From Prevotella sp. (GTDB taxonomy: Bacteria; Bacteroidota; Bacteroidia; Bacteroidales; Bacteroidaceae), in assembly GCA_017474515.1 (NCBI GenBank), contig JAFVHN010000056.1, forward strand, positions 1 to 54,808: 54,808 nucleotides of DNA. Reading direction: 5' to 3'. How positions within the stretch are numbered: position 1 is the first letter of the stretch; each line of letters opens with the position of its first letter. This document shows positions 2,662 to 46,533 of this stretch, one piece after another. The notes beneath the pieces are model-generated. The model had not been told where the DNA came from, did not search any database, and saw nothing but the letters and a program-made list of their open reading frames with translations. The position numbers were made by a program, and so were the translations under genes.

Positions 2662-2897
2662 AAAAGGGGGATAGCGAGACAGGGTAAAATTGGTAAAAAA
2701 TCTTGACAAAACCGGCCGTTTCCCCGAAGGTTCTGTAAACCGCTGAATTTCAGCGGTTTGTAAATCGTCCAAAGTTTAACCGCAAATTAAGGGGAGAAAT
2801 CTTGAAGTTTTCTCCTCTCAATCTTCAAGATCTCTCCCCTTAATTTGCGGTCAAACCTCTTGGGGGGACTAAAAAGTTTTGAAAAATCTTGACAAAA
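2662..2897 (+). repeat. Intergenic palindromic element, copy A
   Basis: One of six copies in this window. The core (2683-2897) is bounded on both sides by a direct repeat TCTTGACAAAA. Inside are a perfect short hairpin (AAACCGCTGAA with TTCAGCGGTTT) and a long inverted repeat, left arm 2781-2800 and right arm 2831-2849 (CGCAAATTAAGGGG against CCCCTTAATTTGCG). The conserved tail AAAAGGGGGATAGC extends the left end to about 2662. It fills most of the gap between the GTPase promoter and the zinc-ribbon gene. No coding potential is seen; the short frames across it are translations of the repeat. Confidence 0.85.
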
Positions 2898-2966
2898 CGA
2901 AGGTCTGCGTTCTGTCGTTTTTTGGGAAACCGGAACTTGGCGAATGTGAAGCAAAAAACATCTTCA

Positions 2967-3272
2967 CTACATGGCGGCCTGAGCGACCATTGCGCACACC
3001 TTCAGTCCGCCGATGACGCTGCACACGAAGAGGAGCGAGCCGATGAAGAATGCCGCCAGGCGGCGGTTGAGGGTGCGCTGCGACAGCCCGCCCACCATGC
3101 GGGCGTGCTCGTATTCCTCTTGCCGCCGGGCTTCTTCGGCAAAACTGGCCCGCGAGACGTGGACGGGGAAGACATTCCCGCATGTCGGGCATTTACACTT
3201 GATGTCGCCGGGAGCCGACAGTTTCAGCACTGCCCGCTTGCCGCATTTGTTGCATGTTACGCTGTATTTCAT
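2967..3272 (-). CDS. Zinc-ribbon membrane protein
   Basis: A 101-residue protein. The N-terminus has two cysteine knuckles, CNKCGK at 7-12 and CPTCGN at 28-33, typical of a zinc ribbon (MJ0042/DUF-type N-terminal zinc finger). A charged linker follows, then one hydrophobic segment near residues 73-95 (AAFFIGSLLFVCSVIGGL). It is probably anchored in the inner membrane with the ribbon in the cytoplasm. It is transcribed toward repeat copy A, and a CCTAGG array lies just upstream. The role is unknown; such ribbons often mediate protein or nucleic-acid contacts. Confidence 0.7.
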   Translation of the reverse strand: MKYSVTCNKCGKRAVLKLSAPGDIKCKCPTCGNVFPVHVSRASFAEEARRQEEYEHARMVGGLSQRTLNRRLAAFFIGSLLFVCSVIGGLKVCAMVAQAAM

Positions 3273-3303
3273 TTTGGGGGAGTTTTTTGAGGGGGTAGGT
3301 TTT

Positions 3304-3349
3304 CCTAGGAGGTCCTAGGTCTTCCTAGGATTTCCTAGGGCTTCCTAGG
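3304..3349. repeat. CCTAGG tandem array, period 10
   Basis: Five CCTAGG palindromes at exact 10-bp spacing separated by variable 4-base fillers. The array starts 2 bp beyond the stop codon of the ADP-ribosylglycohydrolase gene (in that gene's direction) and fills the gap to the zinc-ribbon gene. Confidence 0.9.
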
Positions 3350-3351
3350 TT

Positions 3352-4143
3352 TTACCAGATAGATTTCTTTGCCCTTTCGCAGAACTGGGCTACAATGTCG
3401 AGCATGTCGGGGGGCAGGTAAGAGAAGGCTTTTTCCACCAGGTCCAAGGGAATCTCATAAAACGCCTCGGCCAGGGTTCCGGTGATGGCGGCCTTGGTGT
3501 CGGTGTCGCCGTCGGCGAGCACGGCAATGCGTATGGCATCCTCGAAATTCTCGCTTTCCAGGAAGCAGCGGATGGCCCAGGGCACCGTTTCCATGCAGGT
3601 GCCGTCGAAGTGGCCTTGCCGCCCTATGCGGTAGATGTCTTTCAACGGCGGAAGCTTATAGCCCCAAAGGCGTTCCACCTTGCCCTCTACCTCGTCCTTG
3701 GTGATGCGGCAGGTGCGCAGCCAATAGGTCAGCGTGGCAATGCACTCGGCGCCCTTGATGCCCTCGGGATGGTTGTGCGAGGGCATGGCGGAGAGGCGGG
3801 CCTGCTCTTTCACGTCGTTATAATCGTCGAAGAGCCACGCCACGGCACTTACACGCATGGCGGCGCCGTTGCCCAGCGACCCGTAGGGCTGGGGGTCGGC
3901 GCTGAAAATCCATTTGTAGAATTTTCCGCCGTAGCTACCTTTGGGGTTGGGGTATCGGCGGCACCATTCGAGCAGCGCGTCGCGATAGGACTTGCCGTTG
4001 AGAATGGCATCGGCCACGGCAATGGTGCAGATGGTGTCGTCGGTATAGTCGCACTCGTCTGTAAATAGTTCGAACCCTTTTTGCGGCGGTTCCGAAAACT
4101 CAAATCTTGAGCCTACGATGTCTCCGATAATTGCTCCAAGCAC
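3352..4143 (-). CDS. ADP-ribosylglycohydrolase (DraG/ADPRH family)
   Basis: The 263-residue protein has the hallmarks of ADP-ribosylglycohydrolases: an N-terminal GDIVGSRFE, the metal-binding TDDT at 34-37, GNGAAMR at 91-97, SHNHPEG at 122-128 and the second metal site DGDTDTKAA from 211. Enzymes of this family remove ADP-ribose from proteins or small molecules with bound Mg or Mn. There is no signal peptide, so it acts in the cytoplasm. Start is a GTG at 4143; no ATG is available upstream and the residues after it match the family N-terminus. It lies 34 bp after the pectate lyase gene and may be read through from it. The substrate cannot be told from the sequence. Confidence 0.9.
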   Translation of the reverse strand: MLGAIIGDIVGSRFEFSEPPQKGFELFTDECDYTDDTICTIAVADAILNGKSYRDALLEWCRRYPNPKGSYGGKFYKWIFSADPQPYGSLGNGAAMRVSAVAWLFDDYNDVKEQARLSAMPSHNHPEGIKGAECIATLTYWLRTCRITKDEVEGKVERLWGYKLPPLKDIYRIGRQGHFDGTCMETVPWAIRCFLESENFEDAIRIAVLADGDTDTKAAITGTLAEAFYEIPLDLVEKAFSYLPPDMLDIVAQFCERAKKSIW

Positions 4144-4177
4144 GATGTGAAAGGTGAAAAGGTGAAAAAAGGGGGGA

Positions 4178-6427
4178 TTAGCGGCGCATGATTTTCATGC
4201 TTTGGGTGGTGCCGTCCTTCATGGTGGCGCTCAGGATGTAGGGTCCACGGGGCAGGTTGGCGGTGCTGATGTATTGCGAAAGCTGCGAGTCGGCCACGCG
4301 GCGGCCCTGCATGTTGTAGAGGCAAAGGCGGCTGATGTCGCCATAAACGATGATGGCATTGTCCAGCTGGTAGATGTCGGGGCGCGAGGGATTGGTACAT
4401 AACGTGCTGATGCCTACGGGCTTGCCGTCTTCGTCCACCTCAATAAAGATGCCTATGGTGAGGTCGGTAAGGAACATGTCGCCCTTGCTTTCCACGTTCT
4501 CTATGCGCACGGTGATGGGCTTCTTGGTGGTCTTGGCCATGCTTGCCAGGTCCACACCTGCCGTTCCGGTGCTCATGGAGAGCGTCTGCATGCCCGACTG
4601 GGTGTTGTCTTCGTTGTGCCAGCTCACTTTCAACGTGCGGTTGCCCGTGCAATAGATGTTGCTTCGCAATGAGGCCAGCGAGGGCATCGTCAGCTCCACC
4701 CATCCGGTCTTGGGGATGCGGTATGCGCCGTAGGTCGTCGTAGCGCCGTATTTGTCGCCCAGCTTTCCGGTGGCCAGGTCGCCATTCTTGCCGTAGTATT
4801 GGGGTTTCGGGCCCTGTCCCTCCAATTCCGAGGTGGCCGTGAAGAATTGTGCCACGCTATCGGGCAACACCTCGTCTTGGAAGAGGTAGTTGTTGATTAC
4901 AAGAAATTCGTCCCACAGCTTGCCTTCGTCTTCGTCGGGCTCGGGCTCCACCTCGGGGGCGGTGCCGTCGTTTTCGGGCATCACGAGCTCGTAAACGGGG
5001 TCGGCCATTGCCGTTTCAAAAGGTCCGTAGTCGGGTGCACCGCCACTGTAAGCCAGGGTGACGGTGTGAGAATAGTCGGCCTTTTGAGGCAGCGGGTTGT
5101 AGTCGGGCTTGTTGGGATTGTCGGGGCACGGGAAATTGTCGATGGGCGTGCCGCGGTCGATAAAACGGCTGGTGCTTTTCAGCCGTGCGAAAGTGGTGGG
5201 CAGCTCGCCGTTGGCCTGGCGCGGGGCAATGGCGGCAGCATAGCTGATGTTTTCAAATTCCTGCGAATAGTCGGGCCATTTCTCGTGGGTGTATTTGTTG
5301 TATCCGGCCCCTCCCTCGCCGTCGCGCAAGGGATTGAGCTTGTCGATGTCGAGCCAGTTGCAATGCGAGGCATCGGGAACAATGGTGAAGCGGTGGTTGC
5401 TCTCACTCGGCGCAAAACCGGTACAATTGCGCAACACCCAGTTGGCGTAAACGGGTGCCTCCATGTTGAAAGCATAGTTGATGTAGTTATTGAAAGCCAG
5501 GCAGTTGAACATGAACGACCCTTCCTGGTGGTGGTTCTGGTCGAAGCCTTTCTTCAGGTTGTAGGCGGCAATGTTCCTGATGAACACATGTGCCCCTACG
5601 GAATTTCCGCCCTGCTTGAGTCCTCCGAACTTGATGCCGTTGCCGTTTCCGCACTCGTTGCCCTGCGGGTCGTAGCCGTTGTGGAGTGCCCAGCAGTTCT
5701 CTATGACCACGGGGAAGACGGGGTAATACATGTCCCAGCCGTCATCGCTGTTGTTCCACGCGCGGCAACCGTGATATTCGTTTCCGGGTCCGGGATAAAG
5801 CTTACATGCAAAGCCGTCGGCGTTGCCTCCATTGGTCCACGGGTCGTAATTATTATAGGAGTCGCAATTCACCACAATGTTGCTCCTGCCGTAAATAAGG
5901 TCGGGATTTCCGGTGTTTTCACCATTGTCGCCTTTGGAAAAACCCTGTTGAAGTCCGGTGTCTCCGTTATCGTGGAAAACGCAACGCTCCACCACACAGT
6001 AGCTTCCCTCCAGTTTCATGCCGTTGTCGGCGGCGTTGCAGAAGGTCAATCCGCGGTAGTGCCAGTAGTTGGCTTCCTTTTTATGCAAGAATCCGCGGTT
6101 GGAGCCCGCCACGCTGCTCGACGAGCGGTCCTGTAGTGAGAAGTCGAAGACGGGTTGCTCGTCGGGCCATGCGAACATGCAAATGCGCTTGTCGCGGGTG
6201 CCGGTCTTGGTGACGCTGATTTTCTGGCTGAGGAAGTAGGTTCCTCCGCGCACCCACAGGGTGTCGCCGGGCTGAAGCATGTCCACGGCTTTCTGAACGT
6301 TGCCCATGGGCTTTTCAATGGAGCGGCCGGTGCCGGTGCCGTCGGGAGCCAGCCACAGTTGGCGGGCGTGAAGAGAGGGCAGCACGGCAAGGAAGATTAG
6401 TAACAGAAGGGTTTTCGGGGTGTTCAT
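4178..6427 (-). CDS. Secreted pectate lyase, polysaccharide lyase family 9, with sorting-domain-like C-terminus
   Basis: A 749-residue secreted protein; the signal peptide is about residues 1-22 (MNTPKTLLLLIFLAVLPSLHA). A right-handed parallel beta-helix follows. Family 9 signatures are present: DGFACK near 204-209, AWNNSDDGWD near 223-232 (calcium-binding aspartates), and GNGIKFGG near 261-268, whose lysine corresponds to the catalytic base of Dickeya Pel9A. After about residue 490 come an acidic linker and a beta-rich module. The last 50 residues (LYNMQGRRV, then LPRGPYILS, ending KIMRR) resemble a type IX secretion sorting domain. It cleaves polygalacturonate by beta-elimination. It lies 80 bp after the GH2 gene, probably in one operon. 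ATG 6427 is preferred over the upstream in-frame codon because of the signal peptide. Confidence 0.9.
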   Translation of the reverse strand: MNTPKTLLLLIFLAVLPSLHARQLWLAPDGTGTGRSIEKPMGNVQKAVDMLQPGDTLWVRGGTYFLSQKISVTKTGTRDKRICMFAWPDEQPVFDFSLQDRSSSSVAGSNRGFLHKKEANYWHYRGLTFCNAADNGMKLEGSYCVVERCVFHDNGDTGLQQGFSKGDNGENTGNPDLIYGRSNIVVNCDSYNNYDPWTNGGNADGFACKLYPGPGNEYHGCRAWNNSDDGWDMYYPVFPVVIENCWALHNGYDPQGNECGNGNGIKFGGLKQGGNSVGAHVFIRNIAAYNLKKGFDQNHHQEGSFMFNCLAFNNYINYAFNMEAPVYANWVLRNCTGFAPSESNHRFTIVPDASHCNWLDIDKLNPLRDGEGGAGYNKYTHEKWPDYSQEFENISYAAAIAPRQANGELPTTFARLKSTSRFIDRGTPIDNFPCPDNPNKPDYNPLPQKADYSHTVTLAYSGGAPDYGPFETAMADPVYELVMPENDGTAPEVEPEPDEDEGKLWDEFLVINNYLFQDEVLPDSVAQFFTATSELEGQGPKPQYYGKNGDLATGKLGDKYGATTTYGAYRIPKTGWVELTMPSLASLRSNIYCTGNRTLKVSWHNEDNTQSGMQTLSMSTGTAGVDLASMAKTTKKPITVRIENVESKGDMFLTDLTIGIFIEVDEDGKPVGISTLCTNPSRPDIYQLDNAIIVYGDISRLCLYNMQGRRVADSQLSQYISTANLPRGPYILSATMKDGTTQSMKIMRR

Positions 6428-6507
6428 GATTTTGTTTTTAAGTAGATGAATGGGCCGCAAAGGATGCGGTAAAGGGAAAAATAAAAGGGAGGGAGAAGAA
6501 GGACGGG

Positions 6508-8337: not shown

Positions 8338-8381
8338 GGCTTTTTTACCAATGTATGAATGATCTTGACTGTTTCAGCCTG

Positions 8382-8389
8382 CAAATGTA
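8382..8389 (-). promoter_or_regulatory. Promoter of the GH2/PL9 operon
   Basis: Minus-strand TACATTTG matches the -7 box TAnnTTTG, about 45 bp before the GH2 start. No clear -33 TTTG is visible at the usual distance, which may mean that an activator is needed. Confidence 0.5.
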
Positions 8390-8458
8390 CATAATAATAC
8401 TGAAAAAACACCCTTTTGCTGGATATATTTTGCAGTTTTTCGATTTTCTTCTTTGAAA

Positions 8459-8509
8459 TCTAGAAAATCTAGAAGCTCTAGAAGCTCTAGAAAATCTAGA
8501 AAATCTAGA
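8459..8509. repeat. TCTAGA tandem array, period 9
   Basis: Six TCTAGA palindromes at exact 9-bp spacing with AAA or AGC fillers. The array lies directly beyond the stop codon of the LtaS-like gene (8517), in the same position relative to a stop codon as the CCTAGG arrays. Confidence 0.9.
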
Positions 8510-8516
8510 AAAAAAT

Positions 8517-10358: not shown

Positions 10359-10360
10359 CT

Positions 10361-13435: not shown

Positions 13436-13671
13436 AAAAAGATGGATAGCTGGCAGGATAAAATTTATGAAAAATCTTGACAAAATCAGCTGTTTTTCCA
13501 TAGGTTCCGTAAACCGCTGAATTTCAGCGGTTTGTAAATCGCCCAAAGTTTGACCGCAAATTTCAAGGAGAAATCTTCAAGATTTCCCCTCTCAATCTTC
13601 AAGATCTCTCCCCGAAATTTGCGGTCAAACCTCTTAGGGTATCCAAAAATCTTTGAAAAATCTTGACAAAA
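13436..13671 (+). repeat. Intergenic palindromic element, copy B
   Basis: Same orientation as copy A. TCTTGACAAAA stands at both ends, the short hairpin AAACCGCTGAA/TTCAGCGGTTT is perfect, and the long inverted repeat has TTTGACCGCAAATTT on the left and AAATTTGCGGTCAAA on the right. The tail AAAAAGATGGATAGC lies at the left end. Confidence 0.88.
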
Positions 13672-13729: not shown

Positions 13730-13802
13730 AACTAAATGAAATTAACATATATAATCCGACGCCCTTTAGGAGCCGGCACTACCCGTTCAGGCGGATTTAG
13801 TT

Positions 13803-13901
13803 ACTCCGACGCTCGGAGGCGTCGGCTCCTATAGCGTCGGCTCCTATAGCGTCGGCTCCTACAGCGTCGGTTCTTACAGCGTCGGCTCTTACAGCGTCGG
13901 C
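13803..13901. repeat. Tandem GCGTCGGCTCCTA repeats
   Basis: A GC hairpin (CCGACGC/GCGTCGG around TCGGAG) followed by five units of about 15 bp reading GCGTCGGCTCCTATA with small changes. It is the same sequence family as the REP-like hairpins. A minus-strand frame of 79 codons across it is arginine/serine-rich repeat translation, not a gene. Confidence 0.85.
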
Positions 13902-13913
13902 CAGCACTATCGT

Positions 13914-14061: not shown

Positions 14062-15030
14062 ATGAATCATCGTCCCATAAGTAAACTTTGGCACCGCTTC
14101 CAGCAGTTCGGCGGCTTCCCGCTCATCGGGGCCTATTTCAGGATGGGCCTCGGCGGGGCCTTGGTGCGCCAGGGCTGGCGCCTGCTGTGCCGCCGCACCG
14201 ATGCCGACCATGCCTACACCGCCATCCGCCATGAGGCCAACAAGCGCCTGACGGCACAATATGCGCCGTACATAGCCGAGCGCAAACGCCACTACGACGC
14301 GCTCACCCTGGACCAGCACCGCAGCAACAAGGTGTGGACATGCTGGTTGCAGGGCTTCAGCCACGCACCCCACATGGTGCAGGTGTGCCAGGAGTCGATG
14401 AGGCGACTGCTCACCGACCGCGACATCATACAGGTTGACGCCGACAACTACCGGCAGTACGCCACGCTGCCCGACCTCATCACCAAGCGCTACGAACGGG
14501 GCCAGATGCCGCCGGCGCTCTTCTCCGACCTGCTGCGCCTGGAGTTGCTCATCAACCACGGGGGCACGTGGATGGATGCCTCCATGCTCTGCACCGGCTA
14601 TGAGGCGCAGCGCAAGCTCTTCGACTGCGACCTGTTCATGTTCCAGCACTTCAGGAAAAACGACCGGCAGTTTGAGATTGCCTCCAACTGGTTCATCACC
14701 GCCTGCACCAACAACCGCCTGCTGCTGGTGCTCAGGGATGTGCTCACCGAGTATTGGCGCACGCACACGGTGACGCTCAACTACTATATGTTCCACGACT
14801 TTTTCAAGGCGGTGGCCGCCCTCTATCCCGACGAAACGGCCGCCATGCCGCGCAAGAACCGCCTGCTGCCCCTGCTGCTGGCTCCCCAGCTCGGCAAGCC
14901 ATACAACGCGCAGTGGATGGCCGACCTCACCACCCGTTGCTGCTTCCACAAGCTCAACTACCGCGTGGGCCAGGCTTTGGAGAACACCCGCGGAACATTC
15001 TACAGCGTGCTGTTTAAAGAGGAAGGGTAG
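14062..15030 (+). CDS. Capsular polysaccharide synthesis-type glycosyltransferase
   Basis: A 322-residue cytoplasmic or membrane-peripheral protein. The centre has the glycosyltransferase signature of the capsular polysaccharide synthesis/GT32-like group: KVWTCWLQGFSHAPHMVQVC (about 93-112), IQVDADNY, and SDLLRLELLINHGGTWMDASM (about 155-175), where WMDAS stands at the DxD-like sugar-nucleotide site. It probably transfers a sugar to a surface glycan. It stands alone rather than in a capsule cluster. A TCTAGA array follows its stop codon at once. Confidence 0.82.
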   Translation: MNHRPISKLWHRFQQFGGFPLIGAYFRMGLGGALVRQGWRLLCRRTDADHAYTAIRHEANKRLTAQYAPYIAERKRHYDALTLDQHRSNKVWTCWLQGFSHAPHMVQVCQESMRRLLTDRDIIQVDADNYRQYATLPDLITKRYERGQMPPALFSDLLRLELLINHGGTWMDASMLCTGYEAQRKLFDCDLFMFQHFRKNDRQFEIASNWFITACTNNRLLLVLRDVLTEYWRTHTVTLNYYMFHDFFKAVAALYPDETAAMPRKNRLLPLLLAPQLGKPYNAQWMADLTTRCCFHKLNYRVGQALENTRGTFYSVLFKEEG

Positions 15031-15035
15031 ATTTC

Positions 15036-15158
15036 TCTAGAGTTTCTAGATTATCTAGAGTTTCTAGAGTTTCTAGATTATCTAGAGTTTCTAGAGATTC
15101 TAGATTATCTAGAGCTTCTAGAATATCTAGAATATCTAGAGTTTCTAGAGTCTCTAGA
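15036..15158. repeat. TCTAGA tandem array, period 9, 14 units
   Basis: Fourteen TCTAGA palindromes at exact 9-bp intervals with variable 3-base fillers (GTT, TTA, GAT, GCT, ATA, GTC). It begins 5 bp after the glycosyltransferase stop codon. It is the longest such array in the window. Confidence 0.92.
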
Positions 15159-15210
15159 TTTAGCAAAAGGAGAGCCAAAATATATATTTTCGTTTTTCAT
15201 GTAGTTTTTT

Positions 15211-16342: not shown

Positions 16343-16344
16343 GG

Positions 16345-16500
16345 TAAAAGTGAAAAGTGAAAAGTGAAATGTGAAAGTAAAAGTGAAGAGTGAAAAGTGA
16401 AAAATTTGCTACCGCGTATCAGATGGCGGCAGCAAATTTTTCACTTTTCACTCTTCACTTTTCACTTTAAAAAGCGGCAGCAAATTTTTCACTTTTCACT
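16345..16500. repeat. GTGAAAA array with perfect 30-bp inverted repeat, probable bidirectional terminator
   Basis: AGTGAAAA units start directly after the stop at 16342. Positions 16381-16410 and 16431-16460 are perfect 30-bp inverted arms around a 20-bp centre, and a second TTTCACTTTTCACTT block runs to 16500. The element lies between convergent genes, so a transcript from either side would form a long hairpin and then a short T run. Similar sequence occurs near 4150, 19914, 20957, 23710 and 36005. Confidence 0.85.
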
Positions 16501-16501
16501 T

Positions 16502-17368
16502 TTATAAATATAGTCCGAAAGAGAGGGAGCGGAACTTGATGCCGCCGTCTTTCAAAACATCGTTGTTGCTGTATTTCAGATAAAGGGGCACACCCATGAA
16601 GCCCACGTTCAGCATCCAGTCGAGGGTGACGGGCCGCTGGTTGATGTGCTTCTCCACACGCTTGCTGGTCTCGCCAAGCACCTTGTACTTCGTCTTGATG
16701 CTGGCGTAGGTGTTGAAGTTCACCACAGGGCCGAAGCCAATCCAGAAGTCATCGTTGAAAGTGTGGACAAAGCCCAGGTTGGCCGTCAGGGAGAAGACCT
16801 TGATGCGCGAGAACTTCGGCTCCACGTCCAATGGGTATTTGTCCACGGTGACGTTGCCCTCCGCGTCCTTGGTGAAGAACGTGTCGCCCGTCATGCGATA
16901 ATTCTTCCAGTCGATGCCGAAGCCCATCGACAACTGGTTGTGGCAGCGGCGGTCAAAATAGTGATCGTATTGCGCGATAGTGGCGAAGATTTCCCATGAC
17001 CTGAAGGTTGAGAAGTCGGTGCGCCCGTCGGCCTTTGTGGGTGCGGTGAAGCCGATGCCCAGGTGCGAGGATATTTCGTTCCTGGCTGGCTGGCCGTCGT
17101 TGGTCTTCCCTATTTTCACCGAGGGGATGATGTCCCACAGGTCGCGGCCTATGCGGGTGGTGCTCACATAGTTGGAGTCAACAATCTGGATGGTGCTCTG
17201 ATAGGTGAACTTGTCGTCGCCCTCCTTGCCCACGACGGTGATTTTCTGTAGCGAGTCGTTGGTCACGATGGTCACTTTCCGGGGGTTGTGAATGACCAGG
17301 GTGTCGTTGTCCTGAGCATTGGCCGCCGTCGCTATGGCGAGCAGGGCCAGGATGATGGTTTTCTTCAT
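16502..17368 (-). CDS. Outer-membrane beta-barrel protein, last gene of an ECF operon
   Basis: A 288-residue protein with a signal peptide (1-18, MKKTIILALLAIATAANA). After about 80 residues of soluble N-terminus come alternating amphipathic strands (LSMGFGIDWKNYRM, FSLTANLGFVHTF, FWIGFGPVVNFNTYASI) and a C-terminal strand ending in FGLYL, all consistent with an outer-membrane barrel of about ten strands. It belongs to no family I can name. It lies 9 bp after the secreted-protein gene in the operon started by the sigma factor at 18791, so it may be an output or sensor of that switch. Confidence 0.75.
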   Translation of the reverse strand: MKKTIILALLAIATAANAQDNDTLVIHNPRKVTIVTNDSLQKITVVGKEGDDKFTYQSTIQIVDSNYVSTTRIGRDLWDIIPSVKIGKTNDGQPARNEISSHLGIGFTAPTKADGRTDFSTFRSWEIFATIAQYDHYFDRRCHNQLSMGFGIDWKNYRMTGDTFFTKDAEGNVTVDKYPLDVEPKFSRIKVFSLTANLGFVHTFNDDFWIGFGPVVNFNTYASIKTKYKVLGETSKRVEKHINQRPVTLDWMLNVGFMGVPLYLKYSNNDVLKDGGIKFRSLSFGLYL

Positions 17369-19890: not shown

Positions 19891-19913
19891 AATTAAAAAA
19901 AGTAAAAAAAATG

Positions 19914-19969
19914 AAAGAGTGAAAAGATGAAAAACGCTGGCGGCAGCATTTTTTCACTTTTCACTCTTT
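19914..19969. terminator. GTGAAAA-type hairpin after the aldo/keto reductase gene
   Basis: Inverted arms of about 26 bp (AAAGAGTGAAAAG against CTTTTCACTCTTT, extended by CGCTG/CAGC) around GCGG. It starts 6 bp after the gpr-like stop. On the minus strand it is followed by a T-rich run, which fits an intrinsic terminator or 3' UTR stem. Confidence 0.6.
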
Positions 19970-19974
19970 ACTTT

Positions 19975-20934
19975 TCATTTATTCAAAGGCGAGGCACCGA
20001 TGGCGGAGAGGTTGTCTTGCAACTGCCGCGTGCTGCTGGCCCCCACGAGCACGGAGGTTACGCCCTCGTGCTGCAATATCCAAGCCAGGGCCATCTGCGC
20101 GAGGGTTTCGCCGCGCTGCTGTGCCTGGCCGTTCCATTCTTCCAGCTGGGCCAGCAGGGTGGGCGTGAGCATTTCCTTGCGCAAGAACTTTCCCTTGGCC
20201 ATGCGGCTGTCGTCGGGCACGCCGTTGAGATATCTGTTTGTCAGCAGTCCCTGTGCGAGGGGACTGAAGGAGATGAAGCCAATGCCGTGGTCGCGGCAAT
20301 ATTGCAGCGTGCCGTTTTCTTCCGGTTCGCGGTCGAGCATGTTGAGCTTGTCCTGGAAGATGAGCAGGGGCACGTCGCGTTGGCGCAGGTATTCGTCGGC
20401 CACCTTGAGGGCGGGCAGCGGCCATCGCGAAATGCCCACATAGAGTGCTTTTCCGCTGCGCACAATGTCCACCAGGGCCTGCAATGTCTCCTCAAGCGGG
20501 GTTTCGGGGTCGTAGCGGTGGCTGTAGAAAAGGTCCACATAGTCGAGGTGCATGCGGCGCAGCGACTGGTCGAGGCTGGCCATGAGATATTTGCGCGAGC
20601 CCCAGTTGCCGTAGGGTCCGGGCCACATGTCGTAGCCGGCCTTGGTGGAGATGAACAACTCGTCGCGATAGGGACGGAAACTGTCGTCCATCAGCCGGCC
20701 CATTGTTTCCTCGGCACTGCCATAGACGGGGCCGTAGTTATTGGCAAGGTCGAAGTGCGTGATGCCGTGGTCGAAGGCGAAATGTGTGATTTCGCGGCTC
20801 CGCTCATAAGGGTCCACGCTGCCGAAGTTGTGCCAGAAGCCAAGACTGATTTTTGGCAACAAGATACCGGAATGTCCGCAACGGGCATACTCCATGCCGT
20901 TGTCGTAGCGGGTGGGAAGGGGGAGGTAGGTCAT
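19975..20934 (-). CDS. gpr: Aldo/keto reductase, L-glyceraldehyde 3-phosphate reductase type
   Basis: A 319-residue TIM-barrel oxidoreductase. It closely follows E. coli YghZ/Gpr: SGILLPKISLGFWHNFGSVD near the N-terminus, DLANNYGPVYGSAEE (catalytic Tyr within NNYG, about 60-75), the LDYVDLFYSHRYDPETPLEET segment and the NADPH-binding VLVGASSTRQL near 300. This group reduces L-glyceraldehyde 3-phosphate and related aldehydes with NADPH, for detoxification. Exact substrate is inferred from similarity. It lies between ispG and the tfoX-like gene, separated from each by GTGAAAA-type repeats. Confidence 0.85.
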   Translation of the reverse strand: MTYLPLPTRYDNGMEYARCGHSGILLPKISLGFWHNFGSVDPYERSREITHFAFDHGITHFDLANNYGPVYGSAEETMGRLMDDSFRPYRDELFISTKAGYDMWPGPYGNWGSRKYLMASLDQSLRRMHLDYVDLFYSHRYDPETPLEETLQALVDIVRSGKALYVGISRWPLPALKVADEYLRQRDVPLLIFQDKLNMLDREPEENGTLQYCRDHGIGFISFSPLAQGLLTNRYLNGVPDDSRMAKGKFLRKEMLTPTLLAQLEEWNGQAQQRGETLAQMALAWILQHEGVTSVLVGASSTRQLQDNLSAIGASPLNK

Positions 20935-20956
20935 TGTTTTGAATTAGAAATTAGTT

Positions 20957-21016
20957 AAAGTGAAAAGTGAAAAGTGAAAAATTGGCTGCCGCCATCGGTT
21001 TCTCACTTTTCATTTT
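20957..21016. repeat. GTGAAAA array at the ispG stop codon
   Basis: AAGTGAAAAGTGAAAAGTGAAAAA, a GGCTGCCGCC centre and TCTCACTTTTCATTTTC, so the arms can pair. The right arm overlaps the end of ispG (stop at 21003). It is the same family as the element at 16345-16500. Confidence 0.7.
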
Positions 21017-23657: not shown

Positions 23658-23742
23658 GGAGTTCAGGAGTTCGGAAGTTCAGGAGTTCAGACGTTACTGA
23701 TGGCAGCAAAATTATCACTTTTCACTCTTCACTTTTCACTTC
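23658..23742. repeat. AGTTCAGG and TTCACTTT microsatellites between rpoN and the PAP2-like gene
   Basis: GGAGTTCAGGAGTTC-type units with 8-bp period (23658-23690) and, next to the rpoN stop, TTTTCACTCTTCACTTTTCAC (to about 23742). They are of the two types seen at 13914 and 16345. Confidence 0.8.
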
Positions 23743-23744
23743 AC

Positions 23745-25256
23745 CTATTCTTTCCTAAGGCTTGCCTTGGGTATTCCCAGTTGCCCGCGATACTTGCTGA
23801 TGGTGCGGCGGGCGATGGTATATCCCTGTTTTTTCATTTCCTCCACCAGTGCGTCGTCGCTGAGCGGATGGTGCTTGTCCTCCTGACTGACAATGTCTTT
23901 CAACACGGCCTTCAGCTTGCGGTTCGAGGTGGCCTCGTCTTGTCCGGCCTTCACGCCCTCGCTGAAGAAGTGCCTGAGCCGGAATGTCCCCCATCGCGTC
24001 TGGGCATATTTGGCATTGCAGACCCTCGACACGGTGCTGATGTCGAGCCCAGTCTTTTGGGCCACGTCCTTGAGCACCATGGGGCGCATGTCGTCTTCGT
24101 CGCCGCTTTGGAAATAGCGCTTCTGCAGGTCGATGATGGCCTTCATGGTGACATACATGGTGCGCCGCCGCTGCTTCACGGCCTCTATGTATCCGCGGGC
24201 GCGCTCCACGTTGTTGCGGGCGTAGAGCAGGGCTTCACGGCGCTGGCGGTTCATGTTCTGCCGGTTGCCCTGATATTCGTCCATGAGGTCGAGGAACGAC
24301 TGTGCCACAAACAGTTCGGGAATGTTGCCGCGGTTGAGGGCGAAGGTCACGGTGCCGTCGTCGGCGGTGTCAACCAGGAAGTCGGGTGTTATCTGTTGCG
24401 ACACGTTGTTGTCGGGCTCGTTGAGCGCCGCTCCCGGCTTGGGATTCAGCAGCCTGATTTTCTCAAGGGCCTGCTCCAGCCGCTCGTGGCTGATGTTGAG
24501 TTGCCGCTCTATCTTCTCCCATCGCCGGTTCTTGGCGTCGTCGAAGCAGTCGGCAACAATTCGTCTCATGTCGCTGGTCAGCGTTGACGGCTCGCGCCTG
24601 TCAATCTGCAACAACAGGCATTCCTCGAGCGACCGTGCGCCGATGCCTGCCGGGTCGAAGGTCTGCAGGATGGCCAGCACCTGCCCTATTTCGGCCTCGC
24701 TGACGTTGATGCCATGCCTGAAGGCCAGTTCGTCGCTGATGTCGCCGAGGTCGCGTGTCAGCCAGCCGTTGTCGTCGAGCGAGCCGATGAGGTAGTCCAT
24801 CACCTCCTGCTGCTGCCCGGTGAGCGTGGTCTCGCCCATCTGCTCCCTCAGCTGGTCGTAGAACGACGCCTGCCCGGCATAGATTCTTTCCATATAATAG
24901 TCAGCCCCTTGCGAGGAGCCTCCGGCGGGCGTGGCCTCAGGCATGCGGTCGTCGCTGCCTATCCGTTCCAGGGCCTCGGCGAGGGCATCCTTGCGCTCCT
25001 GGCGCTCAAAGATGTCGAGCTCCGAACCGCCCTGGTCGTCGCTGCTGCCCTGGTCGTCGCCCATGTCGTTGTCGGCATAGCCTTCTTCGGGGGCGGCGGA
25101 CTCCAGCGCCGGGTTGACGTTCAGCTCGGTGAGCACGTTCTGCTCCAGCTCTGCCAAGGGCATTTCAAGCAGTTTCACCTGCAACATCTGCTGCTGCGTA
25201 AGGTGTGTGCCTTGAATCTGCCTTTGTTGTTGAATCTGGTCTAAGCTCTGTGGCAT
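23745..25256 (-). CDS. rpoN: RNA polymerase sigma-54 factor
   Basis: A 503-residue RpoN. Region I is Gln/Leu-rich (LTQQQMLQVKLLEMPLAELEQNVLTELNVNPALE, about 19-52) and region II is acidic (DDQGSSDDQGG). The core-binding region is around 110-290. The promoter-binding domain has an HTH (IDLQKRYFQSGDED to TGLDISTVSRVCNAKYAQT) and ends with the RpoN box ARRTISKYRGQLGIP. It needs an AAA+ activator; none is in the window. It follows the 217-residue gene by 46 bp and probably shares the promoter at 26015-26022. Confidence 0.95.
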   Translation of the reverse strand: MPQSLDQIQQQRQIQGTHLTQQQMLQVKLLEMPLAELEQNVLTELNVNPALESAAPEEGYADNDMGDDQGSSDDQGGSELDIFERQERKDALAEALERIGSDDRMPEATPAGGSSQGADYYMERIYAGQASFYDQLREQMGETTLTGQQQEVMDYLIGSLDDNGWLTRDLGDISDELAFRHGINVSEAEIGQVLAILQTFDPAGIGARSLEECLLLQIDRREPSTLTSDMRRIVADCFDDAKNRRWEKIERQLNISHERLEQALEKIRLLNPKPGAALNEPDNNVSQQITPDFLVDTADDGTVTFALNRGNIPELFVAQSFLDLMDEYQGNRQNMNRQRREALLYARNNVERARGYIEAVKQRRRTMYVTMKAIIDLQKRYFQSGDEDDMRPMVLKDVAQKTGLDISTVSRVCNAKYAQTRWGTFRLRHFFSEGVKAGQDEATSNRKLKAVLKDIVSQEDKHHPLSDDALVEEMKKQGYTIARRTISKYRGQLGIPKASLRKE

Positions 25257-26072: not shown

Positions 26073-26306
26073 AAAAGATGGATAATTCGCCTGATAGTTT
26101 TTATGAAAAATTTTGACAAAACCGGCGGTTTTCCGCAGGTTTCGTAAACCACTGAATTTCAGCGGCTTGCAAATCGCCCAGAGTTTGACCGCAAATTTCA
26201 AGGCGAAATCTTGAAGATTGAGAGGAGAAAACTTCAAGATTTCTCCCCGGAATTTGCGGCCAAACCTCTCGGGGTGTTCAAAAATTTATGAAAAATTTTG
26301 ACAAAA
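26073..26306 (+). repeat. Intergenic palindromic element, copy C
   Basis: Same orientation as copies A and B, with TTTTGACAAAA (C to T change) at both ends, AAACCACTGAATTTCAGCGG in the short hairpin (one mismatch), and the GTTTGACCGCAAATTT arm opposite AATTTGCGGCCAAAC. The tail GGAAAAGATGGATAA is at the left end. A decayed REP-like unit (GGAACCGACGC, GCCGACGC) follows at 26308-26350. Confidence 0.85.
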
Positions 26307-28416: not shown

Positions 28417-28439
28417 AGTTTTTTTTTTAATTTCAAGGG

Positions 28440-28505
28440 CCTAGGAAGACCTAGGAGGTCCTAGGAAATCCTAGGAAAACCTAGGAAAACCTAGGAAACC
28501 CTAGG
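28440..28505. repeat. CCTAGG tandem array, period about 10
   Basis: Seven CCTAGG units with 9-11 bp spacing, followed by a decayed CCTGGG at 28509. It lies just beyond the stop codon of the alcohol dehydrogenase gene (28523). Confidence 0.9.
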
Positions 28506-28522
28506 AATCCCTGGGAAAGCCT

Positions 28523-29797: not shown

Positions 29798-30030
29798 TTT
29801 TGTCAAGATTTTTCAAAGATTTTTGATTGCCCCAAGAGGTTTGACCGCAAATTTCGGGGAGAGATCTTGAAGATCGAGAGGAGAAATCTTGAAGATTTCA
29901 CCCCGAAATTTGCGGTCAAACTCCAGGCGATTTATAAACCGCTGAAATTCAGCGGTTTACGAAACCTGCGAAAAATTGCGGATTTTGTCAAGATTTTTTA
30001 CCAGTTTTCAACCATGACACTATCCACCTC
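29798..30030 (-). repeat. Intergenic palindromic element, copy D (inverted orientation)
   Basis: Reads as the reverse complement of copies A-C. Direct repeats TTTTGTCAAGATTTTT stand at both ends. The long inverted repeat is perfect over 21 bp (29839-29859 with 29901-29921: GTTTGACCGCAAATTTCGGG and its complement). The short hairpin AAACCGCTGAA/TTCAGCGGTTT follows. The tail CTATCCACCTCC is at the right end. It lies between divergent genes (alcohol dehydrogenase and BlaI). Confidence 0.9.
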
Positions 30031-35944: not shown

Positions 35945-36032
35945 TATGAATCGGTGTTTATTTTGGGGGTGATGGGGTTGACGGGGTGAATGGGAAAAAG
36001 ATGGCGGCAGCAAATTTTACACTCTTCACCCT

Positions 36033-36380
36033 TCACTTTTCACTCAGAAAAGGCTCCCAGCGGTGGCGTTTCATGTCCACATGCCCGTTTTCAAGAAACC
36101 TCACGCCCTCCTCCTCCAGGAGCGTGCGCTGGCGGCTCCAGCCGGGAGCCGTGCGCCCCGCCACGGTCACCACGCGGTGGCACGGCAGGCGGTCGGCACC
36201 GGGCGTGAGGCGCAGCGTGCGGCCCACCATCCGCGCATGGCTGGGCCATCCCGCCAGGGCGGCAATGTCGCCGTAGGTGGTCACCCGTCCGCGCGGTATC
36301 TGCCCAACGATGTTCAGCACGTCATGGCCGAAGCGGCGGGCCTCATCGGCGGTCATCCGGTCGCGATAGTCTTTCATCAT
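36033..36380 (-). CDS. Short MGMT DNA-binding-domain protein (alkyltransferase or ATL-like)
   Basis: A 115-residue protein consisting of only the C-terminal domain of O6-alkylguanine-DNA alkyltransferase: GHDVLNIVGQIPRGRVTTYGDIAALAGWP (18-46), ARMVGRTLRL, and the active-site PCHRVV (about 66-71) with the cysteine kept. Alkyltransferase-like (ATL) proteins of this length usually have Trp or Ala in that place, so this one may still accept alkyl groups. It repairs or flags alkylated guanine. MM start; either ATG is possible (36380 or 36377). A GTGAAAA-type motif touches its stop. Confidence 0.85.
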   Translation of the reverse strand: MMKDYRDRMTADEARRFGHDVLNIVGQIPRGRVTTYGDIAALAGWPSHARMVGRTLRLTPGADRLPCHRVVTVAGRTAPGWSRQRTLLEEEGVRFLENGHVDMKRHRWEPFLSEK

Positions 36381-36441: not shown

Positions 36442-36678
36442 TTTTGTCAAGTTTTTTTATCAATTTTTGGACACCCCAAGAGGTTTGACCGCAAATTGCG
36501 GGGAGAAATCTTGAAGATTGAGAGGAGAAATCTTGAAGATTTCACATTGAAATTTGCGGTCAAACCCGGGCCGATTTATAAACCGCTGAAATTCAGCGAT
36601 TTACAGAACCTGTGGAAAAAGGGACGATTTTGTCAAGATTTTTTACCAATTTTACTCCATGTCGCTATCCACCTTTTT
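36442..36678 (-). repeat. Intergenic palindromic element, copy E (inverted orientation)
   Basis: Same orientation as copy D. TTTTGTCAAG starts it, TTTTGTCAAGATTTTTTACC is near the right end, the inverted arms are GGTTTGACCGCAAATTG and GAAATTTGCGGTCAAAC, and the short hairpin has AAACCGCTGAAATTCAGCG with one decayed end. The tail CTATCCACCTTTTTC is shared with copy D. It lies between divergent genes. Confidence 0.87.
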
Positions 36679-36967: not shown

Positions 36968-37975
36968 ATGAAAAGAATATCCCAGCGCGACATTGCCCGT
37001 GCCCTGAACATCAACGTTTCCACGGTGTCGCGGGCGCTGAGGGGCCTCGACGGCGTTAGCGACGACCTTCGCCGGCAAATCATGAGCATGGCCGAGGAGC
37101 GGGGCTACCGGCCCAACCCCTTTGCCGTGAGCCTGCGCTACGACACCACGCGCACCATCGGCGTGGTGGTGCCCGACGTGGCGTTCAACCACAACGCCCA
37201 CATCGTGAAAAGCATAGAGGCCGAGGCGCGCAAGGCCGGATACATGTGCATCATCACCGACTCCGACGACAAGCAGGAGACCGAGGCCGAGTGCCTCGAC
37301 CTGCTGGTGAACATGCACGTGGAGGGCATCATCATCTGCCTGTCGCAGGAAACGACGGACTTCTCGCACCTGGAGAAGCTGAAGAAGGCGCGCATGCCCA
37401 TCGTGCTGTTCGACCGCGACCCGCGCATCGGCATTTCATCGGTCGTCATCAACGACGTTGCCTCGGCGCGGCAGGTCACCAACAGCCTCCTCGACGACGG
37501 TGCCCGCCGCATTGCCTTCCTGGGCGGACCCAGCAGGATGAGGCAGACCGCCGACCGCAAGCACGGATACCTGGAGGCGCTGCGCGAACGCGGCGTGCCG
37601 GTAAGGACGGAATTGGTGAAGTGCAACCACATCAGCTTCAACTCGGGACTGAAGGACACCCTCGACCTGCTCGACTTGCCCGAGCCGCCCGACGCCATCC
37701 TGGCCTCGCACGGGCTGCTGGCCATCTCGGCGCTGCAGGCCATCACCAGCCGGGGCCTGCGCATCCCCGAGGACGTGGCCATCATAGGATATATCAGCGA
37801 CTGGGTGTCGGAGATGTCGTCGCCACGCATCTCGTTCGTCAAACAAAACCAGCACGAAATGGGCTGCAAAGCCTTCCGCCTGCTTCAAGACCAGATGAAC
37901 GGCGACGATAGCATTCAACATGTGGTGGTGAGCGCACGGTTGGAAATTCGCGACAGCACGAAGAAAACAAAGTGA
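36968..37975 (+). CDS. LacI family transcriptional regulator
   Basis: A 335-residue LacI-type regulator. The N-terminal HTH is QRDIARALNINVSTVSRALRGLDGVS (5-30) with the hinge helix near 48-60. The periplasmic-binding-protein-like ligand domain follows (TIGVVVPDVAFNHNAHIVKSIEAEA, VLFDRDPRIGISSVVIND, AIIGYISDW). It probably binds a sugar released from the polysaccharide degraded by the GH9 enzymes. It is the first gene of the run lacI-GH9-barrel-GH9; the GH9 gene starts 86 bp after its stop. Binding to O1 and O2 is inferred. Confidence 0.9.
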   Translation: MKRISQRDIARALNINVSTVSRALRGLDGVSDDLRRQIMSMAEERGYRPNPFAVSLRYDTTRTIGVVVPDVAFNHNAHIVKSIEAEARKAGYMCIITDSDDKQETEAECLDLLVNMHVEGIIICLSQETTDFSHLEKLKKARMPIVLFDRDPRIGISSVVINDVASARQVTNSLLDDGARRIAFLGGPSRMRQTADRKHGYLEALRERGVPVRTELVKCNHISFNSGLKDTLDLLDLPEPPDAILASHGLLAISALQAITSRGLRIPEDVAIIGYISDWVSEMSSPRISFVKQNQHEMGCKAFRLLQDQMNGDDSIQHVVVSARLEIRDSTKKTK

Positions 37976-38061
37976 AATCACCACTCTCGAAAAGGGAAGA
38001 AACAACGAAACGAAACACCCCCATCCTCGTGGAACGGGCTGGGGCTTATTATTTTAAAAAA

Positions 38062-40584: not shown

Positions 40585-40612
40585 GTTATGAGTTACGAGT
40601 TATAAATTATGA
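40585..40612. repeat. GAGTTAT-type spacer repeat
   Basis: Units GTTATGAGTTACGAGTTATA directly follow the first GH9 stop and end at the start codon of the barrel gene. This is another instance of a short tandem array at a stop codon. Confidence 0.6.
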
Positions 40613-43512: not shown

Positions 43513-43565
43513 TTTAAAACCTGGCCTACCTCCAACCCCTGACGGGGGATTGTGCAACCTCACAT

Positions 43566-43596
43566 CTTCCCCCAAGGGGGGATTAGAGGGGGGCTC
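43566..43596. repeat. CCCCCAAGGGGGGATTAGAG-type hairpin
   Basis: C5/G5 stem with an AAGG-like centre followed by ATTAGAGGGGGGCT. It sits in the 100-bp gap before the second GH9. I recall this motif as common between Bacteroidetes genes. A similar CTCCCCTCGGGAGGGGG element is at 46747. Confidence 0.6.
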
Positions 43597-43612
43597 CTAT
43601 TTCACCTTTTAT

Positions 43613-46132
43613 ATGAAGCACTACTCAACCATGATTCTCGCCCTTCTGTTCATTATGCAGACGGCGGGAGCACAGACTTTCAAACTCAATGCCGACGGCT
43701 ATTTCAACGCCGGCGGAACCGACGTGATGGCCTTCAGCGACTTCTATCCCGAAGGACATCAGGGCGGCGTGTGTGTCATCATGAATGCCAAGCGCATTGC
43801 CACCAACGGCGACATACGCCTGGAGGCCACGCCCGGGCAATGGCAACCCGTGCCCAAACAACTCAGCCGCAAGGCCGAGGGCAACAAAATCACCACAACC
43901 CTCTGTTACCCAGACTCTTCGCGCCATCTGACGGGCTTCAATCCGATGGTCTATCCCGACTACCAGTTCAACTACACCGTCACCGTGGAGCCGCAGGGAC
44001 AGGGCATCCTCGTCACCGTGGACCTCGACAAGCCCGTGCCGCAGTTCCTGCTCGGAAAGGTGGGCTTCAACCTGGAATTTTTCCCCGGCGAACTCTTCGG
44101 AAAGCCGTGGCTCATGGACGACCAGGCAGGCATCTATCCGCAGCAGCCCAACGCGCCACTTGAACTCTTGCCCACCAACCGCGGCCACGACGGCGACTAC
44201 TTTGCCAGACGCGGGCAAAAGGCCGACCTGGCACAACTCGACGGCGAGGGCTACAGCCCCTTGCGAGCCGACGACATCATTGCCGCGCCCTACGCCGAGG
44301 GCCGCCGCTTCACATCGCGCCCCGACGACGCCGCGCAGAAAGTCACCGTGGAGAGTTTCACCGGCAACCTGAAACTCTACGACGGCCGCATGAACCACAA
44401 CAACGGATGGTTCGTGCTGCGCAGCGAGATTGCCCAGGGAGCCACCAAGGGCGCCGTCAAGTGGCTGATAACCCCCGAGGTGGACAACAACTGGCGATAC
44501 CAGCCCGTCATTCAGACCTCACAAGTGGGCTACCTCACCAACCAGCAGAAGCGCGTTGTCATTGAAACCGACCGCCGCGACAGCCTCTCGGCCGCCGAGG
44601 CCACCCTCTGGCGCATAGAGGCCGCCGGCGAGCGGCTCGTCAGCACCGTGAAGGCCGACTCGTGGGGCCGCTTCCTGCGCTATCACTACCTCACCGCCGA
44701 CTTTTCCAACGTCACCGAGCCCGGACTCTATCGCGTGCGCTACGGCATGGAGCAGTCCAGCGTCTTCCGCATCGGCGACAATGTCTATGACCGCGGCGTG
44801 TGGCAACCCGTGGTGGAATATTTCCTGCCCGTGCAGATGTGCCACATGCGCGTAAGCGAGAAATACCGCATCTGGCACGATGCCTGCCACATGGACGACG
44901 CCCTCATGGCCCGCGTGGGCAACCATATCGACGGCTACGACCAGCGCCCCGGGCTCAGCAAGTTTGCCGAGGGTGAGCGCGTGCCGGGCGTGAACGTCGG
45001 GGGATGGCACGACGCCGGAGACTTCGACCTGCGCGTGGAGTCGCAGGCCGGAGAGGCTTACATCCTTGCCCTGGCCTACGAGCAGTTCCACCCCGACATC
45101 GACGTCACCGCCATCGACCAGCAACGCCACCGCGTGGAAATCCATGAGCCCGACGGCAAGAACGACATCCTCCAGCAGGTGGAGAACGGTGCCCTCACCG
45201 TGGTGCGCTCCTACCAGGCGCTCGGACGGCTCTATCGCGGCATCATCTGCAACTCCCTGCGGCAATACGCCATGCTGGGCGACGCGGCGGCCATGACCGA
45301 CGGACTGGCCGGAAATGCCGACGACCGATGGATTTTCACCGAGGACAACCCCGGGCGCGCACTCTCCACGGCCGCCAACCTGGCCGGAGCGGCCCGCGTG
45401 CTGCGCGGCTTCAACGACGCCCTGGCCGGGGAATGTCAGACCATTGCCGCCACCATCTACCGCGACACCCAGGCCTCGGGATTTCTCGTGGGAAGCAAGT
45501 TGCAGGCGGCCGTGGAACTCTATCTCACCACGGGCGAGCAGCCTTACCTCGACTTCATTCTCAGCCAGCAGGAGCTCATCACCCGAGGCATAGGACGCAC
45601 GGGATGGTACACGGCACGCATCGCCAAAATGCTGGAAACCAAGAAGGACAAGCAGAGCCGCCGGTTCGCCGCCGCCTTCCGGCAGGCACTCAACCAATAT
45701 CGCGATCAACTGGAGCGACAGGCCGCCGAAACGCCCTACGGCGTGCCCTACCGTCCCAGCATCTGGGGGGCAGGATGGGACATCCAGCGCTTTGGATTTG
45801 AATACTATTTCCTCACCAGCGCCTATCCCGACATCTTCCCGAAAGAAACCGTGAACAACGCGCTGAACTTCATCCTTGGCTGCCATCCCGGCAGCAACAC
45901 GGCATCGTTCGCCTCGGGCGTGGGGGCACGCTCGGCAACGGTGGCCTACGGACTGAACCGCGCCGACTGGAGCTACATCCCCGGCGGAGTGGTGTCGGGC
46001 ACGGCGCTCATCCGCCCCGATTTCCCCGAACTGCTCACCTTCCCCTTCCTGTGGCAGCAGGTGGAATACGTCCTGGGCGGCGGTTCCTCGCACTACATGT
46101 TCCTGGTGCTGGCAGCAATGGAGAAAAAATAA
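43613..46132 (+). CDS. Secreted GH9 glycoside hydrolase (second copy)
   Basis: An 839-residue paralogue of the gene at 38062 with the same layout: signal peptide (1-20), N-terminal beta-rich domain with the shared DLDKPVP...VGFNLEFFP stretch (about 140-165), CelD N-type Ig domain (TSQVGYLTNQQKRVVIE), then the GH9 barrel. DAGD at 467-470 and E818 in WQQVEYVLGG are kept, but the sequence around the acid differs from the first copy, suggesting a different substrate or cleavage pattern. The start is the ATG at 43613; the longer frame runs through the G-rich hairpin. A terminator-like hairpin follows. Confidence 0.9.
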   Translation: MKHYSTMILALLFIMQTAGAQTFKLNADGYFNAGGTDVMAFSDFYPEGHQGGVCVIMNAKRIATNGDIRLEATPGQWQPVPKQLSRKAEGNKITTTLCYPDSSRHLTGFNPMVYPDYQFNYTVTVEPQGQGILVTVDLDKPVPQFLLGKVGFNLEFFPGELFGKPWLMDDQAGIYPQQPNAPLELLPTNRGHDGDYFARRGQKADLAQLDGEGYSPLRADDIIAAPYAEGRRFTSRPDDAAQKVTVESFTGNLKLYDGRMNHNNGWFVLRSEIAQGATKGAVKWLITPEVDNNWRYQPVIQTSQVGYLTNQQKRVVIETDRRDSLSAAEATLWRIEAAGERLVSTVKADSWGRFLRYHYLTADFSNVTEPGLYRVRYGMEQSSVFRIGDNVYDRGVWQPVVEYFLPVQMCHMRVSEKYRIWHDACHMDDALMARVGNHIDGYDQRPGLSKFAEGERVPGVNVGGWHDAGDFDLRVESQAGEAYILALAYEQFHPDIDVTAIDQQRHRVEIHEPDGKNDILQQVENGALTVVRSYQALGRLYRGIICNSLRQYAMLGDAAAMTDGLAGNADDRWIFTEDNPGRALSTAANLAGAARVLRGFNDALAGECQTIAATIYRDTQASGFLVGSKLQAAVELYLTTGEQPYLDFILSQQELITRGIGRTGWYTARIAKMLETKKDKQSRRFAAAFRQALNQYRDQLERQAAETPYGVPYRPSIWGAGWDIQRFGFEYYFLTSAYPDIFPKETVNNALNFILGCHPGSNTASFASGVGARSATVAYGLNRADWSYIPGGVVSGTALIRPDFPELLTFPFLWQQVEYVLGGGSSHYMFLVLAAMEKK

Positions 46133-46174
46133 ACCGCCCCTTTCCTTTGGCCCCCACCCCACCCCGTGGCGGCA

Positions 46175-46231
46175 AAAACATAAATTCCGCCGCATTGTGC
46201 ATACCCTGCATGGTGCGGCGGAATGTTTATT
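46175..46231 (+). terminator. Long hairpin after the second GH9 gene
   Basis: ATTCCGCCGCA pairs with TGCGGCGGAAT (with AACAT/ATGTT extending the stem) around a 19-bp centre, 43 bp after the GH9 stop. The run of T after it is short, so the terminator role is inferred. Confidence 0.55.
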
Positions 46232-46317
46232 GCTACGCACAACCTCGGGCGCTGAGAGGTGGAAAAAACGTTCACCAAATGTAGGGACGCGAGGTATCGC
46301 GCCCGAAAAAAAACAGG

Positions 46318-46533
46318 GGGGTAATTTTGGTAAAAAATCTTGACAAAATTACCAAAATTTTGAAGATTTTGTAAAGCATTGATTTACAACAACTTGCAAA
46401 TCACCCGAATTTTGACCGCAAATTTCAGGGAGAGATCTTGAAGATTTCTCCCCTCAAACTTCAAAATCTCTCCTCGAAATTTGCGGTCAAACCTCTTGGA
46501 GTGCCCAAATTTTTATGAAAAATCTTGACAAAA
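46318..46533 (+). repeat. Intergenic palindromic element, copy F
   Basis: The most diverged copy, in the A/B/C orientation. TCTTGACAAAA stands at both ends and the long inverted repeat is kept (TTTGACCGCAAATTTC and GAAATTTGCGGTCAAA), but the short AAACCGCTGAA hairpin has decayed to GTAAAGCATTGATTTAC. Confidence 0.82.

Follow-up and report, generated by a model that had tools for sequence, protein, structure and literature searches.

The nearest published element that we found for the repeat reported here, by size, number, placement and restricted distribution, is PINSR of Prevotella intermedia, although the two are likened by description and not by sequence. The sections of its account that characterize the repeat give a 188-bp intergenic sequence present in 177-184 copies, judged non-coding, confined to a small Prevotella group and without terminal inverted repeats, with about three quarters of the sites common to two strains (PMC4755523). 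A second point of reference is BrickBuilt, a miniature inverted-repeat transposable element (MITE) of Porphyromonas gingivalis and P. gulae, which is described in part as 19 intergenic copies of 84 to 991 nt composed of tandem 23-nt units with a leader and a tail, and with IS5-like inverted ends (PMC4596501). Here we describe an element that occurs six times in 54,808 nt of a Prevotella sp. contig (JAFVHN010000056.1, assembly GCA_017474515.1; this whole stretch is called the window).

The element contains a periodic array of 22-bp units between two boxes at a mostly fixed spacing, is placed between genes, and has a layout that recurs in other species. With about even confidence, we interpret it as a dispersed intergenic, putative protein-binding DNA array under selection. 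In what follows, G000 denotes the genome that contains the window, other G numbers denote other genomes, and L numbers denote loci.

Architecture and copy number of the element

All six copies listed in a preliminary description of the window were found at their given places, and the five others align to copy D (BLAST E ≤3.4e-48), which defines the reference orientation; copy coordinates are given in a 233-column frame (Table 1). In this orientation, the element starts with box 1, TTTTGTCAAGATTTTTCA, which is followed by a variable spacer and then by four 22-bp units with the consensus sequences GTTTGACCGCAAATTTCGGGGA, GAGATCTTGAAGATTGAGAGGA, GAAATCTTGAAGATTTCTCCCC and GAAATTTGCGGTCAAACTTCGG. 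On the 3′ side of this array lie a spacer, a 33-bp palindrome (TTTnnAA-N5-TGAnnnTCA-N5-TTAnAAA), another spacer, box 2, and a weaker tail that extends to near TATCCA. Unit 4 carries the reverse complement of unit 1 and units 2 and 3 are near-palindromic, and it is this arrangement that creates the long palindrome previously described as a stem. The short hairpin and the long palindrome are both present in the copies as had been claimed, and the element indeed encodes no transposase. The end repeats also exist; they are not inverted but direct repeats of TTTTGTCAA-type boxes.

The earlier projection of hundreds of copies per genome agrees with our count. Box TTTTGTCAAGATTTTT, with two or fewer mismatches, occurs at 391 places in the own assembly (3.51 Mb, 88% complete) compared to 5 for the reversed control, which at two boxes per copy corresponds to approximately 195 copies. 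A covariance model of the core yields at least 150 matches in the same genome, some of which represent both strands of one copy. Of 141 copies that were fetched, 140 count as full length, with a start at model position ≤15 and an end at position ≥205 of 233. The remaining copy spans positions 16-213. By a simple word rule, the distance from box to box is 185 or 186 bp in 114 of these 141 copies; 18 have another value and nine carry no second word.

Table 1. Positions in the window of the six element copies and of the parts of copy D.
Feature	Position	Strand	Remark
Copy A	2664..2897	-	alignment to 233-column frame
Copy B	13439..13671	-	alignment to 233-column frame
Copy C	26075..26306	-	array centre inverted
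Copy D	29798..30030	+	reference copy
Copy E	36442..36675	+	alignment to 233-column frame
Copy F	46301..46533	-	tail degenerate
Box 1 of copy D	29798..29815	+	
Array in copy D, four 22-bp units	29839..29926	+	
Accessory palindrome (short hairpin) of copy D, TTTnnAA-N5-TGAnnnTCA-N5-TTAnAAAA	29931..29964	+	
Box 2 of copy D, direct repeat of box 1	29983..30002	+	

Array layout in related species

Box TTTTGTCAAnATnTTT is multi-copy in eight of 200 genomes, with 259 matches in G000, 35 in G075, 18 in G136, 17 in G074, 16 in G118, 14 in G194, 13 in G162 (which we take to be P. melaninogenica) and 12 in G148; the other genomes have 0 to 2 matches, and controls give 0-1. At loci of these box-rich genomes, arrays built of other words are found upstream of the box, and the unit sequences are species-specific. 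When autocorrelation was computed over shifts of 10-44 bp, using 141 copies in G000 and 5 to 9 loci in each other genome, 22 bp was the top shift in eight of nine genomes and exceeded the 95% shuffle limit (in G194, 44 bp ranked first and 22 bp second). The genomes with the 22-bp period are G000, G148, G162, G118, G136, G194, G074 and G077, the last of which has such arrays without the box. In 120 kb of G162, comprising six stretches that were each picked for a box hit, we found 13 repeat regions longer than 160 bp. In 60 kb each from G016 and G040, no repeat between genes had more than one hit.

The 33-bp palindrome is present in eight genomes, and these are partly different from the eight with a multi-copy box. 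A palindrome score of at least 13 was reached in 13 of 14 loci of G148 and G162 compared to 14 of 216 random windows, and also in two of six loci of G075, two of six of G077 and one of seven of G136, but in none of seven loci of G118, six of G194, or the G074 sets of nine and two. Furthermore, the covariance model produced eight weak hits in five additional species (G091, G004, G018, G055 and G105). All seven that were fetched contain the palindrome with 15-17 of its 17 fixed positions, the hairpin having been part of the searching model, and the top shift was 22 or 44 bp in five and second in two (no shuffle control). That relatives have a similar layout with different unit sequences points to protein-binding DNA more than to a structured RNA.

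Sequence constraint

In the small number of orthologous copies that could be compared, the array and boxes appear to change more slowly than the intergenic DNA next to them. Five orthologous pairs were aligned, and L243/L250 was left out of the count since its alignment fails both inside the element and outside it. In the other four pairs, all from G148 and G162, array identity is 328/342 (95.9%) with gap positions (22 in the array) not counted as differences, compared to 731/833 (87.8%) in the outer flanks (Fisher p=8e-6). Box 1 is identical at 68/72 positions and the box-2 region, including the 40 nt that precede it, at 213/228. Array and box regions combined (609/642) exceed the remainder of the element, including the hairpin (267/316; 84.5%; p=2e-7), and neighbouring, mostly coding DNA stands at 1523/1599 (95.2%). 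In one of the pairs, L240/L246, the array has been shortened by exactly 22 nt.

Two additional comparisons bear on the same point. The single element of G414 and its G000 counterpart differ at 7 of 182 positions in the blocks and at 7 of 51 in the spacers (p=0.016), and their outer flanks differ at 4/228 and 13/187. Mean identity among the 141 G000 copies is 83% for boxes and array and 45% for the inner spacers. Because the spacers are much changed while the blocks and their spacing are preserved, selection is likely to act on the blocks.

Genomic context

None of the 141 copies overlaps a gene by more than about 30 bp, where genes were called by a codon-usage method. After omitting 22 copies at locus edges, 72 of the 119 elements that have genes on both sides reside in divergent or convergent gaps, compared to 25 of 66 other gaps of at least 150 bp from the same element-selected loci (p=0.004). 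Copies are separated from gene ends by a median of 59-108 bp and from gene starts by a median of 234-468 bp, and codirectional copies exhibit a weak orientation bias (31 vs 16, p=0.04).

There are loci where two species each have an array of their own next to the same gene end (L291/L113 and L269/L016 are examples). A first test of such positional conservation gave p=0.012 but was biased by the layout of the loci. A fairer test of same-side versus opposite-side placement gave 11 vs 2, with seven neither (p=0.02), or 7 vs 2 after repeated loci were merged by hand. We treat this as a lead, as the counts are too few and too dependent. An empty-site check at copy D made use of the yqhD-like gene there, which is present in 193 other genomes of 398 with a best identity of 86%; its neighbourhood was not syntenic in the 11 other loci examined. 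In another species, GGAGTTATCGG-type repeats adjoin the yqhD-like gene (L198, G185).

Distribution among genomes

A search of 398 genomes of the same genus for the exact two-box pattern gave 146 matches in G000 and single matches in G074 and G313, the latter two of which differ inside (as read from L191 and L187, which carry the identical matched sequence). Copy D has no BLAST match in 39 other related genomes, and in 47 genomes from other genera the box shows no clear enrichment (one genome has 13 matches vs 5 for the control). One box pair and one full element were found in Prevotella RGIG5970 (L186, G414). This copy is embedded in a stretch of 1.9 kb or more that shares 95% identity with the own locus L081 and stops abruptly on one side, so that the copy was most likely carried along with a chromosomal segment. 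The stretch shared by L186 and L081 is itself a likely case of transfer between Prevotella species. A multi-copy G414 repeat at L186:5975-6300 accounts for the bulk of 118 matches and has a top shift of 9, not 22. Plasmids and phages gave no match to copy D, the exact stem pattern is absent from viral contigs, and one G162 copy has no match in plasmids; given these results, we rejected a phage or plasmid origin.

Alternative explanations

We consider it possible, though not probable, that the element is a selfish non-autonomous mobile element resembling a MITE or a repetitive extragenic palindromic (REP) sequence, which would be moved in trans by an unrecognised transposase whose needs would account for the conserved blocks. 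The preliminary description had included a mobile element among its options, and in its favour there are roughly 200 dispersed copies, all but the one in G414 confined to a single sampled species, and 140 of the 141 fetched copies are complete under the model rule. BrickBuilt, moreover, is a MITE that contains 23-nt repeats (PMC4596501, in part). What is lacking are inverted ends, convincing target-site duplications and, in the own loci covered, solo boxes. The ends are direct repeats, and no terminal inverted repeats were found. A scan for target-site duplications across 140 copies and 3220 combinations of length and boundary revealed no consistent length or place, the best settings being 6 nt (two copies vs 0.05 expected) and 5 nt (five copies vs 0.8). 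None of 196 boxes lies outside an element in 556 kb of own loci, all chosen around elements. The array is also retained at shared sites in orthologous copies, which likewise speaks against this reading.

Known transposition systems were considered as well. The GTAG and CGTC tags of REP elements and their associated tyrosine transposases (RAYTs), the complements of these tags, and the GAGACC-type inverted ends of BrickBuilt are all absent from the 233-nt consensus. The Y1 transposase family PF01797 has no hit in five of the eight box-rich genomes (other transposases were not searched for), and there is no element in the 3.3-kb locus of the single G000 hit. We rejected a MITE, on the grounds of direct ends, no consistent target-site duplication and no solo boxes in own loci, and a RAYT/REP system, on the grounds of these PF01797 results. 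The sole PF01797 hit of G000 (L283; G000:C24:23184-23495) sits among REP-type GTAGGGACATAC...GTATGTCC repeats and near a gene that reads by eye as rpoC-like.

We regard it as improbable that the element is a structured RNA, such as a terminator, an attenuator or a stabilising 3′ hairpin, read from neighbouring genes. Copies do lie closer to gene ends than to gene starts and show the weak codirectional bias given above, and the fold is very stable in the own species. As single-stranded DNA, the long palindrome of four window copies folds with z of -9.6 to -13.0. When the stretch that precedes the box by 95 to 205 bp was folded with RNA energies against single-base shuffles, the mean z was -11.0 for G000 (first 60 of 141 copies), -5.9 for G136, and a moderate -1.7 to -3.5 for G118, G148, G075 and G194. 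In G162 and G074, however, it is -0.6 each, barely above shuffled sequence, and some related species thus retain the layout without a stable stem. Moreover, the location of 72 of 119 copies in divergent or convergent gaps counts against this reading, and no stretch of the window matches Rfam at gathering score.

The preliminary description had noted a stem difference between copies A and D (TTAAGGGG/CCCCTTAA vs TTTCGGGG/CCCCGAAA), which is present in the sequence, and had concluded from compensating change that base pairing was kept. Double changes in 41 copies do exceed column shuffles (44 cells vs 26.7), but paired cells amount to 89.3% vs 88.1% with partners shuffled, and the long stem has no G-U strand preference in 141 copies (one-sided transitions 221 vs 211, p=0.67), so that the claim is weakly supported at most. 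The pairs richest in double changes sit in the central part of the array, which across the 141 copies is inverted in 29, direct in 109 and unclear in three, and inversion of the centre is expected for DNA-level rearrangement of a palindrome. Wobble-compatible changes in the short hairpin are skewed by strand (71 vs 261), as an RNA might require, but this skew rests largely on mostly unpaired, mismatch-rich pairs. On the shuffles, the balanced wobble and the weak folds in G162 and G074, we rejected RNA structure as a conserved property of the long stem.

Least likely of all is a portable promoter or regulatory insert, for which one can cite that BrickBuilt segments drove lacZ in E. coli (PMC4596501, in part), that the reversed boxes (AAAAATCTTGACAAAA) are TTGACA-like and resemble a -35 region, and that TTTTGTAA of the reversed hairpin is found at a constant distance from box 2. 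Against such a role stands the median of 234 to 468 bp that separates copies from gene starts. Furthermore, the Bacteroidetes -7 word is TAnnTTTG, and its TA is not conserved there in the 141-copy profile as judged by eye.

Other repeats in the window and beside the copies

Several other repeat families were noticed. TCTAGA words recur every 9 bp at 8447-8512 and 15015-15170, forming a separate family of short-period palindromic arrays, and CCTAGG words recur every 10 bp in the mutually inverted arrays at 3285-3369 and 28431-28515. Beside elements B and F, at 13802-13908 and 46566-46715, are GCGTCGGCTCCTA 15-bp repeats and CCGACGCTTCCAAGCGTCGG palindromes. Dispersed TCACTTTTCAC repeats with a GCGGCAGC end occupy 16343-16522, 19905-19987, 20953-20992, 23695-23748 and 35999-36052. 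Finally, a repeat CATTTNTCATTTAGCGAAGCGCC stops a few bases from box 1 in the left flank of several copies (for example L007, L013, L033 and L034, among 60 inspected without a count).

Discussion

Of the options raised in the preliminary description, a DNA-protein binding site or chromosome-organising repeat fits best. With units of 22 bp, about two helical turns, corresponding positions come back to nearly the same side of the helix from one unit to the next. Each unit could be the site for a DNA-binding protein whose specificity varies by species, and several protein molecules might assemble side by side along one helix face. A protein at the 33-bp palindrome may help in some species, and the boxes may bound the nucleoprotein site. 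Such an assembly would serve a chromosome-level role or mark the boundaries of transcription units.

Several observations weigh against a protein-binding array under selection. First, the evidence for constraint comes from two other species and four orthologous pairs, the array identities are uneven (100, 91, 100 and 91%), and the 22 nt lost from L240/L246, like other gaps, do not enter them. The left flank of L240/L246 (97%) is better kept than its array, the left outer flank of the G000/G414 pair (98%) is more conserved than the element, and the hairpin region of the G148/G162 pairs is kept no better than the flanks. Second, the layout is not uniform: G075, the second most box-rich genome, has no 22-bp period, G118, G136, G194 and the main G074 family do not exceed the control for the hairpin motif, and the multi-copy box is limited to just eight of 200 genomes. 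Third, the context comparison is drawn from loci selected for holding elements. Fourth, we identified no binding protein for the array.

A broader proposal, which we put forward only tentatively, is a genus-wide system: a DNA-binding protein and its tens to hundreds of chromosomal 22-bp-site arrays would change together, giving each of many Prevotella species a site "dialect" of its own with a conserved layout and in part the same gene ends. PINSR-type repeats have so far been described per species or small group and without function, and a common layout of 22-bp array, 33-bp palindrome and boxes with species-specific units would unite them as one phenomenon. The arrays also yield a concrete binding-site prediction. 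If true, the proposal would point to a new protein that organises the chromosome or marks domain boundaries in a major group of gut and oral bacteria, and how hundreds of sites change sequence jointly would be a problem of general interest.

In being dispersed, palindromic and present at high copy number, the element resembles REP elements as outlined in part in PMC3733652, but it differs from REP/RAYT systems in having no GTAG/CGTC tag, no linked RAYT and a 22-bp array. Like BrickBuilt, as far as that partial account extends, it is intergenic and has repeat units of near-equal length (22 vs 23), but it has about 200 copies, a nearly fixed length, direct-repeat boxes and no inverted ends. Our searches of open-licence literature returned no account of 22-bp arrays in Prevotella. 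The element shares with PINSR its intergenic position, its lack of terminal inverted repeats and its abundance (approximately 195 copies vs about 180). The sections of the PINSR account that describe the repeat (PMC4755523) mention neither a 22-bp organisation nor a cross-species layout, and on our analysis the layout shared across species appears to be the new point relative to PINSR.

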